The notes under the pieces: model-generated
Told to the model about the DNA's origin: nothing
The model's input: the letters and a program-made list of their open reading frames with translations, nothing else
The model's database searches: none
Origin: Pseudomonadota bacterium
GTDB lineage: Bacteria; Bdellovibrionota_C; UBA2361; OMIW01
DNA length: 10,148 nucleotides
Direction of reading: 5' to 3'
NCBI GenBank assembly: GCA_900299205.1
Contig: OMIW01000045.1
Span: forward strand, 1-10,148
Shown: one piece after another, positions 1,809-4,873 of the stretch
Position numbering within the stretch: position 1 is the first letter of the stretch
Layout: every line of letters begins with the position of its first letter
Program-made: the position numbers and the translations under genes

Positions 1809-2065
1809 GACCTAAAACAGCAGAGAGCGGCAATATAGTGTAGGGGGTGCCCAAAGCGAAGGGCATCCCTGCTCCCGTACCTTGGTGCCATAGAGGCACG
1901 GGGAAGGTTCCCCATTCACTCACCCTACCACCCCATCTCACAAAATCCTCCAGCTCCCCAAGCTCCCTGCAAAAAAAAGGGGGGGCCTGCCAACACCATC
2001 CAGCCCCTCCCAACTGAAGACTCCCGTCCCCGAGGTAATCGTGATAGGCTCCTCTCACCGAATAT
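1809..2065. other. Non-coding stretch with consecutive hairpins and homopolymers
   Basis: No credible gene lies between the phage-like gene and the ATPase. Three structures follow each other. GGGGTGCCC (1844-1852) pairs with GGGCATCCC (1861-1869) with one G/T pair and an 8-base loop. GTGCC/GGCAC surrounds ATAGA around 1885-1899. GGGGAA/TTCCCC lies at 1899-1912 with a 2-base centre. The first could end transcription of the preceding gene but has no T-run. Eight A followed by seven G lie at 1971-1985. The compound palindrome at 2066-2120 closes the stretch. Confidence 0.5.
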
Positions 2066-2120
2066 GTCGAGCTTGGTCGATATTTTTGTCGACCAAGCTC
2101 GACAAAAATATCGACCAAGC
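2066..2120. repeat. Compound palindrome able to form two exclusive hairpins
   Basis: The 22 bases at 2071-2092 are the exact reverse complement of 2099-2120, with a 6-base centre. Overlapping this, the 15 bases at 2066-2080 are the exact reverse complement of 2089-2103, around an 8-base T-rich loop. The shared unit CTTGGTCGA (2072-2080) recurs inverted at 2089-2097 and 2111-2119. The two foldings use the same bases and cannot coexist on one strand. The structure ends 5 bases before the first possible start codon of the ATPase, so it may act as operator, attenuator or protein-binding palindrome. It could also be the end of a mobile element. Confidence 0.85.
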
Positions 2121-2125
2121 ACTGA

Positions 2126-3295
2126 ATGCCAGCTAACATCATGATAGTACGAGATATTATACCTGCACTCGAACAAAGACTGAGTGCTCCGAACCCCCTT
2201 ATTCAGGTAGTTCTCGGCCCGCGGCAGGTCGGTAAAACAACCGCCGTCGAGCAGCTGCTTGGTCGTCTTCCGACAACTACCCCCCGACACTACGCCTCCG
2301 CAGATGCCGTTTTTCGCTCTGACTGGAGTTGGCTCGAACGACAGTGGCAGGAAGCGAATGCCAAGGGCTCCGATACCGTCCTCGTTCTTGACAAGATCCA
2401 AAAGGTTGAGAACTGGTCCGAGATTATTAAAAAGTGCTGGGATGAACAGCGGCGAGCAGCGCACCGAATCAAGGTAGTTCTGCTTGGTTCAAGCTCACTC
2501 CTGCTGCAGTCGGGTCTCTCCGAAAGTTTGACCGGCCGATTCGAGCTACTGCGTGCCTATCATTGGAATTACCGCGAATGTGTCGAGGGTTTTGGTCTTA
2601 CTCTTGATCAATATCTCATCTATGGCGGTTACCCGGGAGCGCTCGCCTTCCGCGACGATCCCGACCGGTGGCTCTCCTACATGAAATCCTCCATCATCGA
2701 GACGGTGCTCGACAAAGACATCTCGCAAATCCGGCGAGTGACCCGCCCAGCGCTGTTCCGACAGGTATTTGAGCTTTTATGTAGCTATCCCGCCGCTGAA
2801 ATCAGCCTACGCAAACTCGTGGGACAACTCCAAGATCCTGGAACTATCGACACCATCAAGCATTATATCGAGCTTCTCGAAGGTGCCTTCCTGTTAAAAA
2901 CCCTTCGCAAGTTCACGACAAATCCGATTCAGAAGCGGTCATCAAGCCCAAAGATTCTTCCTCTCGCACCGGCACTCTGCACCTTTGCTCGTGCTGATAT
3001 AACGCTCACCGACAGCCTGCGAGGCAGATTGTTTGAACTCGCGGTAGGTCTCGACCTCGCTCGTCTTCCGGGCGAGTTATCATACTGGCGCGTCGACAAC
3101 GACGAAGTCGACTATGTGTACCGGCAAGGCAGCAAAATAATCGCCATCGAGGTCAAGTCAGGCCGCCGTCGATCCCCCCACGGTCTCATCGCATTCAAAC
3201 GAGCATTCCCCTCCGCTCAAACGGTCACCATATCACCCGATCAGTACGACTCTTTCTGCAGCGACGTGCGAGCATTTATCTCGGCGGTGTTGTAG
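2126..3295 (+). CDS. AAA_14/DUF4143 ATPase (COG1373-like) with altered Walker B
   Basis: A 389-residue product of usual family length. Residues 27-40 form the Walker A strand and loop G-P-R-Q-V-G-K-T-T. Walker B is at 84-93, V-L-V-L-D-K-I-Q-K, where the family normally has D-E: the catalytic Glu is Lys90 (codon AAG at 2393-2395). A sensor-like L-L-G-S-S-S is at 119-124 and T-G-R-F at 136-139. The DUF4143 region follows. Its C-terminal part has the restriction-endonuclease-like pattern: Glu304, V-D-Y (328-330) and I-E-V-K-S (341-345), so PD-(D/E)xK acidic and lysine positions appear kept. The family is widespread and multicopy; its cellular role is poorly known. ATG at 2126 or 2141 could be the start; neither has a Shine-Dalgarno, and the palindrome abuts the first. 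The coding strand has more C than G. Confidence 0.88.
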   Translation: MPANIMIVRDIIPALEQRLSAPNPLIQVVLGPRQVGKTTAVEQLLGRLPTTTPRHYASADAVFRSDWSWLERQWQEANAKGSDTVLVLDKIQKVENWSEIIKKCWDEQRRAAHRIKVVLLGSSSLLLQSGLSESLTGRFELLRAYHWNYRECVEGFGLTLDQYLIYGGYPGALAFRDDPDRWLSYMKSSIIETVLDKDISQIRRVTRPALFRQVFELLCSYPAAEISLRKLVGQLQDPGTIDTIKHYIELLEGAFLLKTLRKFTTNPIQKRSSSPKILPLAPALCTFARADITLTDSLRGRLFELAVGLDLARLPGELSYWRVDNDEVDYVYRQGSKIIAIEVKSGRRRSPHGLIAFKRAFPSAQTVTISPDQYDSFCSDVRAFISAVL

Positions 3296-3670
3296 ATAGT
3301 GGCTATCTTCTGTCTGGATTTTGGATCTTTTCGGGGTTGTTTTTTGTCTAATCTGCCGAAATCTCGGGTAATACAACACTAGCTTGTGGGAGCGGGTGTT
3401 ACAAATGGGTTTTTCAGGGCCCACTAGACAGTGGGATAACGCTTCAAACAGCAGACGCCTGACCGACAGACGAATATCTTTCGAGTAATCGTCCGACATC
3501 GGCCCGGTATGAATCTCTCGTGGCCGACAGCCGACCCCTACCTCTACCTCAGAGGTATAGAGGTAGGGTATCGAGAGAGGTCTAACCACTGCCGATTCGC
3601 CCCTCTTAAGATTGACCACTTCCCTATACGGAATTTCATGACTTCGCTAAACCTTTGTTCCCTAGTCGTC
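3296..3670. other. Non-coding stretch between the two ATPase genes
   Basis: The frame of the second ATPase stays open back to an ATG at 3509, but residues encoded before 3671 show no family character, so I treat most of this as leader. CCCACT/AGTGGG at 3420-3435 forms a 6-bp hairpin with a 4-base loop. The longer palindrome at 3536-3568 is listed separately. TTGACC at 3613-3618 resembles a -35 box but has no matching -10. A minus-strand frame at 3233-3619 lacks any recognisable protein character. Confidence 0.4.
3536..3568. repeat. 33-base palindrome upstream of the second ATPase
   Basis: The 10 bases at 3536-3545 are the exact reverse complement of 3559-3568. Inside them ACCT (3546-3549) pairs with AGGT (3553-3556) around CAG, leaving a 2-base bulge (3557-3558). 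That gives a 14-bp stem with a 3-base loop. It lies about 100 bases before the likely start at 3671 and has no T-run after it. As with the first ATPase, a strong palindrome precedes the gene, although the sequences differ. Confidence 0.75.
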
Positions 3671-4873
3671 ATGCGCTCCCCTCACTACTTACGCACTCTC
3701 CCCCTGGCGCGACTTCTCAAACAGAAATCGTTTTTTCTGTTTGGCCCCCGCGCCACCGGCAAGACCACCCTGATTGAGGCGGCGTTACCTGATGCTTTGG
3801 TTATCGACCTGCTCCATACCGCCACGTACGCCTCCCTTGTCCGCAACCCCAGTGCTCTCGAAGAGATTATCGCGGCTAGGAGCGCGCAATCGTCGCAATC
3901 CCGCCGGGGAGCCTCCGCCGTCCACCCATCGCCACCGATTGTCGTCATTGATGAAGTGCAAAAGCTGCCGAGCATTCTCGATGAGGTGCAGCGCTTGATG
4001 CACACCCGCCGCATCACCTTTTTACTGACGGGCTCAAGTGCTCTTAAACTGAAGCATGGAGGAGCGAATCTCCTCGCCGGAAGGGCGCGCGAAGCCCGCC
4101 TTTTTCCCCTCACCTCAGCTGAGATCCCTCAATTTGATCTTGTTCGCTACCTCAATGTGGGTGGGCTTCCCGCGATTTATGACAGTACCGAGCCCAACGA
4201 GGATCTTGCCGCATACGTCGATACCTACCTAAGAGAGGAGATCAAAGCCGAAGCAGTGACGAGAAACGTTGGCGCATTCGCTGGATTTCTCGATGCGATC
4301 GCCCTCTCCAATGGCCAGGAGATTGCATACGAATCGCTCGCATCCGACGTTCAGGTCTCCCCAGGAACGGTGAAGAATTACCTGCAGATCCTCGAGGACA
4401 CCCTCATAGGCTTTCGCCTCCCTGGCTTTACCGCGACTCGAAAGAGAAAGGCGCTCATGCGGTCTAAGCATTATCTTTTTGATCTTGGTGTTACTCGCCA
4501 CTTAGCAAGGGGCGGAGCAATTAGCCCAAAAAGCAAAGCATTCGGTGATGCGTTCGAGCACTTCATCGTCCTTGAACTCCGCGCATTTCTCTCGTACCAC
4601 CGACTCACCCACGAGCTAACATATTGGCGAACAACCTCTCTCTTTGAGGTCGATATCATTGTTGGAGGCACCTGGGCGATTGAGATTAAGGCGACTGACC
4701 ACCCTTCGGAGAAGCATCTCCGCGGCCTCCGAGCACTTCGCGAAGAGAACATCTGTCGCGAGTATCTGTTGGTCTGCTTCTGCGAGCACGAACGGCTCAC
4801 CAGTGACGGCATCAGAATTATCCCGTGGCGAGTCTTTTTGAGCCGACTATGGGCGGGGAAGATGATTTCTTGA
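3671..4873 (+). CDS. AAA_14/DUF4143 ATPase (COG1373-like), intact motifs
   Basis: From the ATG at 3671 the product has 400 residues. Family proteins typically begin R-Y-L-x-x-x-L, as here, so I prefer this over the ATGs at 3638 and 3509; no start has a clear Shine-Dalgarno. Walker A is F-G-P-R-A-T-G-K-T-T (24-33). Walker B is V-V-I-D-E-V-Q-K (91-98), with the catalytic Glu present. L-L-T-G-S-S (118-123) follows. L-T-S-A-E-I-P-Q-F-D and Y-L-N-V-G-G-L-P (147-168) are typical of this class, as is I-L-E-D-T-L-I-G-F (240-248). The C-terminal nuclease-like part has Glu296, V-D-I-I (327-330) and I-E-I-K-A (337-341). A serine/alanine-rich insert (residues 69-87) lies before Walker B. It is not a close copy of the first ATPase but shares its architecture and coding-strand C excess. 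Role unknown. Confidence 0.88.
   Translation: MRSPHYLRTLPLARLLKQKSFFLFGPRATGKTTLIEAALPDALVIDLLHTATYASLVRNPSALEEIIAARSAQSSQSRRGASAVHPSPPIVVIDEVQKLPSILDEVQRLMHTRRITFLLTGSSALKLKHGGANLLAGRAREARLFPLTSAEIPQFDLVRYLNVGGLPAIYDSTEPNEDLAAYVDTYLREEIKAEAVTRNVGAFAGFLDAIALSNGQEIAYESLASDVQVSPGTVKNYLQILEDTLIGFRLPGFTATRKRKALMRSKHYLFDLGVTRHLARGGAISPKSKAFGDAFEHFIVLELRAFLSYHRLTHELTYWRTTSLFEVDIIVGGTWAIEIKATDHPSEKHLRGLRALREENICREYLLVCFCEHERLTSDGIRIIPWRVFLSRLWAGKMIS

Follow-up and report, generated by a model that had tools for sequence, protein, structure and literature searches.

What is the function of the long palindrome that precedes an AAA_14-DUF4143 ATPase gene in our window, i.e. the whole stretch of 10,148 nucleotides analysed here? 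The original prediction described it as two exact inverted repeats with arms of 22 bp and 15 bp that form mutually exclusive hairpins, and offered three explanations: a switchable attenuator, a binding site for the nuclease-like domain of the ATPase itself, or the end of a transposable element. Our analysis favours, with a probability of roughly 0.7, an operator made of inverted half-sites with a 22-bp period, which would be bound by the ATPase encoded downstream. Such an operator would probably be autoregulatory and serve repression. We infer the ATPase as the binder, repression as the effect and the trigger of release.

Both inverted repeats are present in the window (Table 1). The 22-bp arms were described correctly, and the arms of the second, overlapping repeat measure 16 bp instead of 15 bp. 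Three copies of the unit CTTGGTCGA, alternating in orientation, are present within the palindrome, as had been noticed, although the underlying repeat is TCGA, recurring in alternating steps of 10 and 12 bp and thus with a period of 22 bp. The half-site reads T[A/G]TCGA in the layout TCGA-N6-TCGA-N8-..., again with alternating orientation; the inner spacers of the dyads are GCTTGG/CCAAGC, and the AT-rich links TATTTTTG and CAAAAATA lie between dyads. Both inverted repeats are a consequence of this array. The same holds for the two mutually exclusive hairpins, because any array of alternating half-sites automatically yields such pairing.

The array call is based on direct reading, on the top score in the window and on a matching architecture at homologous genes. 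When a 22-bp four-half-site score was calculated for all positions of the window, the array ranked at the top with values of 19, 18 and 17, followed by a next best value of 16. Perfect inverted repeats in shuffled windows (n=20) reached at most 8-11 bp, compared with 22 bp in the window. Folding of the transcript, as proposed along with the original prediction, gave -38.1 kcal/mol (z = -9.1) for the palindrome. A few arrays are perfect palindromes over their entire length, spacers included, with arms of 26 bp at locus L119 (upstream of position 3997), 21 bp at L120 (upstream of position 3982) and 22 bp in the window. Fully palindromic arrays are as expected if template switching corrects imperfect palindromes.

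Table 1. Coordinates of the array and of the adjacent ATPase gene in the window.
Feature	Position	Strand	Remarks
Operator-like array, five TCGA half-sites	2065..2124	.	Half-sites at 2067-2070, 2077-2080, 2089-2092, 2099-2102, 2111-2114
Degenerate sixth half-site (ACTG) of the array	2121-2124	.	Sequence read directly
Perfect inverted repeat, 22 bp	2071..2120	.	Arms 2071-2092/2099-2120, 6-nt loop, 100% complementary; arises from the array
Overlapping perfect inverted repeat, 16 bp	2065..2104	.	Arms 2065-2080/2089-2104, 8-nt loop, 100% complementary; arises from the array
Possible promoter inside the array, weak	2086..2114	+	TTGTCG (2086-2091), 17-bp spacer, TATCGA (2109-2114)
AAA_14-DUF4143 ATPase, PDC-S01 type	2141..3295	+	Open frame from ATG 2126, likely start ATG 2141
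Walker B position 90, Lys codon AAG	2393..2395	+	Glu in nearly all aligned homologues
Predicted winged helix, residues 208-279 counted from ATG 2126	2747..2962	+	AlphaFold2 secondary structure
Predicted recognition helix, residues 241-253, IDTIKHYIELLEG	2846-2884	+	AlphaFold2 secondary structure

Aligned homologues of the ATPase have their first codon at the position corresponding to ATG 2141 (MIVRDII...), which makes this codon the probable start. The array therefore ends about 20 bp upstream of the start codon, and not five bases upstream as originally assumed. The protein matches the PADLOC phage-defence candidate PDC-S01 (E = 2.4e-134), and both of its domains score above cut-off (AAA_14, E = 7.7e-22; DUF4143, E = 5.3e-20). 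The P-loop GPRQVGKTT is intact, and the PD-(D/E)XK-like residues E327, D329, E342 and K344 are kept in the DUF4143 domain. An AlphaFold2 model with a mean pLDDT of 93.5 can be read as an AAA+ domain, a confidently modelled winged helix and a C-terminal nuclease-like domain. Its nearest folds are archaeal AAA+ ATPases (2qen, 2fna) and Cdc6/Orc1 initiators (1fnn, 2v1u, 2qby); a search of solved structures by sequence gave no clear relative. The Walker B motif reads LDKIQ, with Lys in place of Glu, and this copy may be hydrolysis-dead, decaying or affected by a sequencing error at codon 90. A second DUF4143 ATPase is encoded downstream (within 3509-4873, likely start at about 3671). There, a weak CATGAC...GTCATG dyad (3637-3673) reaches the start codon and is possibly a different site belonging to that gene.

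Scanning genome contigs with the window protein alone gave no matches. An alignment of this protein with 11 close homologues was used as query instead and led to 80 named loci from about 20 phyla. Homologues throughout these phyla show an equivalent architecture before the start codon, with clade-specific half-sites such as TACTCA, TACTAG, TAATAG and TGTTCA. The largest clade carries TTTACTCA-N6-TGAGTAAA, usually as two dyads spaced 22 bp, the clade nearest to the window has ACTAG-N6-CTAGT, and AATAG, GTTCA, GAGAATT and more are found in others. In the TACTCA clade the information content per base is 1.6 bits in the half-sites, 0.39 in the inner spacers and 0.25-0.34 in the flanks. With a sequence-blind array score that considers only the 22-bp geometry, 51% of the ATPase starts (n=68) reached at least 18 of 20 points, as opposed to 1.6% of 311 control starts, i.e. 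starts of other genes within the same loci (p ~6e-27). About a quarter of the homologues scored below 16, and no array was seen in the upstream regions of L097/L122 and L107.

Half-sites with a 22-bp period, judged by eye, also precede all four plasmid-borne ATPases found later (from Thermus oshimai, Collinsella aerofaciens and, in two cases, Bacteroides finegoldii) as well as the gene on a later-found IMG/VR contig (L284), i.e. five out of five close relatives. A distant relative on a Thermus thermophilus plasmid has a short 8-bp dyad only. Different dyads are present at the starts of more distant DUF4143 subfamilies, where the best-dyad score was at least 9 in 18 out of 51 cases versus 13 out of 290 controls. 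On a B. finegoldii plasmid, L282 is a relative of the ATPase that lacks annotation and whose frame showed no usual start codon, so that it may be a pseudogene; three TTGAACA-like sites at 22-bp steps are still located upstream of it.

The array is nearly absent elsewhere in the genomes. Allowing one mismatch, it was found in 20 out of 45 genomes of the named set, with one site each and one additional identical copy at a contig end; a second genuine site was not found in these 45 genomes. Possession of the gene was the criterion for choosing these genomes, and it is the absence of further sites that is informative here. The palindrome unit of the window has one copy in its 2.45-Mb genome even if up to 3 mismatches are allowed. 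Palindromes at positions unrelated to DUF4143 genes had been named as an observation that would speak against the original prediction. The survey of 45 genomes of the window's phylum turned out in its favour: the sole TCGA array was that of the window, and the sole ACTCA array was located at another ATPase. Furthermore, dyads differ between paralogues of one genome, e.g. L101, L108, L218 and L238 in genome G012, which argues against one shared regulator. Expansion of DUF4143 genes is very uneven, reaching 44, 34 and 32 matches per genome in G029, G006 and G012, respectively (genome sizes 2.6-4.8 Mb), and zero in many close relatives.

Half-sites follow the clades of the protein tree. The half-site class, which was set or corrected by hand in 14 of 50 tree rows, is CTCA throughout a set of 32 sequences that belong to many phyla and in which the recognition helix mostly starts with [TV][TV]TL[AS]. 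In the clade with a changed helix the class is different as well, the combinations being TDLVK with CTAG, VELVK with ATAG and, in the window, IDTIK with TCGA; the window protein belongs to this second clade (support 100/97). Exceptions are L129 and a T. oshimai gene (L279), which have half-sites ending in AG without the Lys-type helix. A partial Mantel test comparing the recognition helix with the half-site resulted in r = 0.17 (naive p = 0.02), with tree and helix confounded in this comparison and other protein segments scoring as high. Since the correlation is weak and the helix is not singled out, it is by inference that we assign binding to the ATPase itself. Of the three options originally offered, the ATPase's own binding site fits best, with the predicted winged helix rather than the nuclease-like domain as the probable binder.

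Promoter elements of the type TTGAC-16/18-TA.... were found before 13 out of 67 ATPases and 11 out of 290 controls (p = 6e-5), and several of them overlap the array. In the Bacteroidales, elements of the TAnnTTTG type fall on the link (TGAG-TAAATTTG), as seen by direct reading. Reading also revealed that in some distant subfamilies the dyad brackets a clear promoter, e.g. TTGACA-17-TATAAT in L290 and TTGACA-17-TATACT in L296. For the window, a possible promoter inside the array is suggested by the geometry of the relatives L098/L099/L101; a consensus promoter scan of the window did not find this candidate. No normal ribosome-binding site was seen before the window ATPase.

These observations have to be weighed against other explanations of the array. 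It is unlikely that the array is the operator of a different DNA-binding protein, i.e. a host regulator. The weak outcome of the half-site/helix co-variation test would agree with such a regulator, but the architecture tracks the gene across about 20 phyla to which no single host regulator would be common. In addition, the site is private to the ATPase gene, paralogues of one genome carry different sites, and the ATPase has a predicted winged helix of its own. Somewhat less likely still is an attenuator, in which alternative RNA hairpins hide or expose the ATPase start, and the array is probably not a two-state device of this kind. The low folding energy of the window copy, the lack of a visible ribosome-binding site, and the long, perfectly paired arms with differing inner sequences at L119, L120, L218 and L223 would all suit an attenuator, and the window copy, which is unusually perfect, may have a role in RNA. 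Most relatives, however, conserve the half-sites and their 22-bp phasing while the 6-bp would-be loops drift, and the arrays of L166 and L284 are direct repeats that cannot make a hairpin. Promoter elements often lie within or beside the arrays, and the search of Rfam families against the window gave no match at the gathering threshold.

That the array marks DNA for the nuclease-like domain, for self-cleavage, mobility or tethering and not for transcription control, is very improbable. The retained PD-(D/E)XK-like residues and the spread of this ATPase family between phyla are compatible with such a mark, yet the arrays lie on the promoter/start side, with promoter elements overlapping them, the unit is single-copy, and the region downstream of the window gene showed no matching site. 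A transposable-element end or a chance palindrome can practically be dismissed. The single copy of the unit in the genome led us to reject the transposon end, as did the association of the architecture with one gene family across phyla, and the 22-bp arms far exceed those arising by shuffling. The transposon reading could draw on another inverted repeat close by (465-544), which is truly dispersed and has 28-nt arms that are 86% complementary. This repeat belongs to a family with 30 genomic occurrences of GAGGCTGCGAAATAAGGGG-like ends, frequently located at the ends of contigs or arranged in inverted pairs at a distance of 166 bp, and it looks like a small MITE-like element.

If the array is an operator bound by the ATPase, at least two dimers of the ATPase, or a small oligomer, could occupy it, contacting a single face of the DNA with their winged helices at one half-site per helical turn and in alternating orientation. 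The bound protein would block transcription of its own gene, resulting in helically phased negative autoregulation. An ATPase engaged elsewhere or in a changed nucleotide state, e.g. on foreign DNA, would leave the gene derepressed. As a tentative and rather doubtful extension, the whole PDC-S01/DUF4143 family may consist of self-repressing STAND-like ATPases which sit on arrays in their own promoters and depart from there on sensing invading DNA, so that the protein would be activated and the gene switched on. If true, private paralogue-specific half-sites would prevent cross-regulation among the paralogues of one cell, with up to 44 DUF4143 matches per genome. The array offers a starting point for asking how many paralogues coexist in one cell without crosstalk. 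A family of "function unknown" would gain a defined DNA target with predictable half-sites, and the array may also point to genes responding to foreign DNA.

PDC-S01 is a PADLOC candidate found by guilt-by-embedding, an unvalidated candidate for phage defence that is reported to rank fourth by frequency among the defence systems of prokaryotes (PMC12988326). The window gene matches this COG1373-like family in its AAA_14-DUF4143 protein, but the family is known as a protein family only, and we found no mention of a conserved upstream DNA element. A literature search on DUF4143/COG1373 with palindromes, inverted repeats and autoregulation by AAA ATPases yielded no report of arrays and no paper that evidently dealt with regulation of this family, subscription papers and preprints being outside its scope. 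A conserved operator array with a 22-bp period that is specific to the paralogue and linked to PDC-S01 ATPases in many phyla seems not to have been described before, and the conserved upstream element provides a first handle on the DNA target and control of the PDC-S01 protein. In T. thermophilus, an AAA_14-DUF4143 gene was up 6.6-fold when a plasmid and Argonaute were both present (PMC4406477), which is only a hint at relief of repression.

Archaeal AAA+ ATPases (2qen, 2fna) and Cdc6/Orc1 proteins (1fnn, 2v1u, 2qby) share with the modelled window protein the order of an AAA+ domain followed by a winged helix, and Orc1/Cdc6 proteins bind origin DNA in the structures 2v1u and 2qby. Cdc6/Orc1 proteins are not known to carry a DUF4143 domain. 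Their sites mark replication origins, whereas sites of the window type are located at the ATPase's own gene. Autoregulation by inverted repeats is of a known kind, also in defence-type systems: the AbiE antitoxin AbiEi is reported to autoregulate via multiple inverted repeats (PMC7319586). AbiE shares with the arrangement proposed here that the product of a defence-type gene controls this gene at several inverted repeats in the promoter, and differs in being a two-gene system with AbiEi as a separate antitoxin. In the window system a single gene encodes the presumed repressor, an AAA+ ATPase that also has a nuclease-like domain, and this system is analogous to AbiE and not a member of it.
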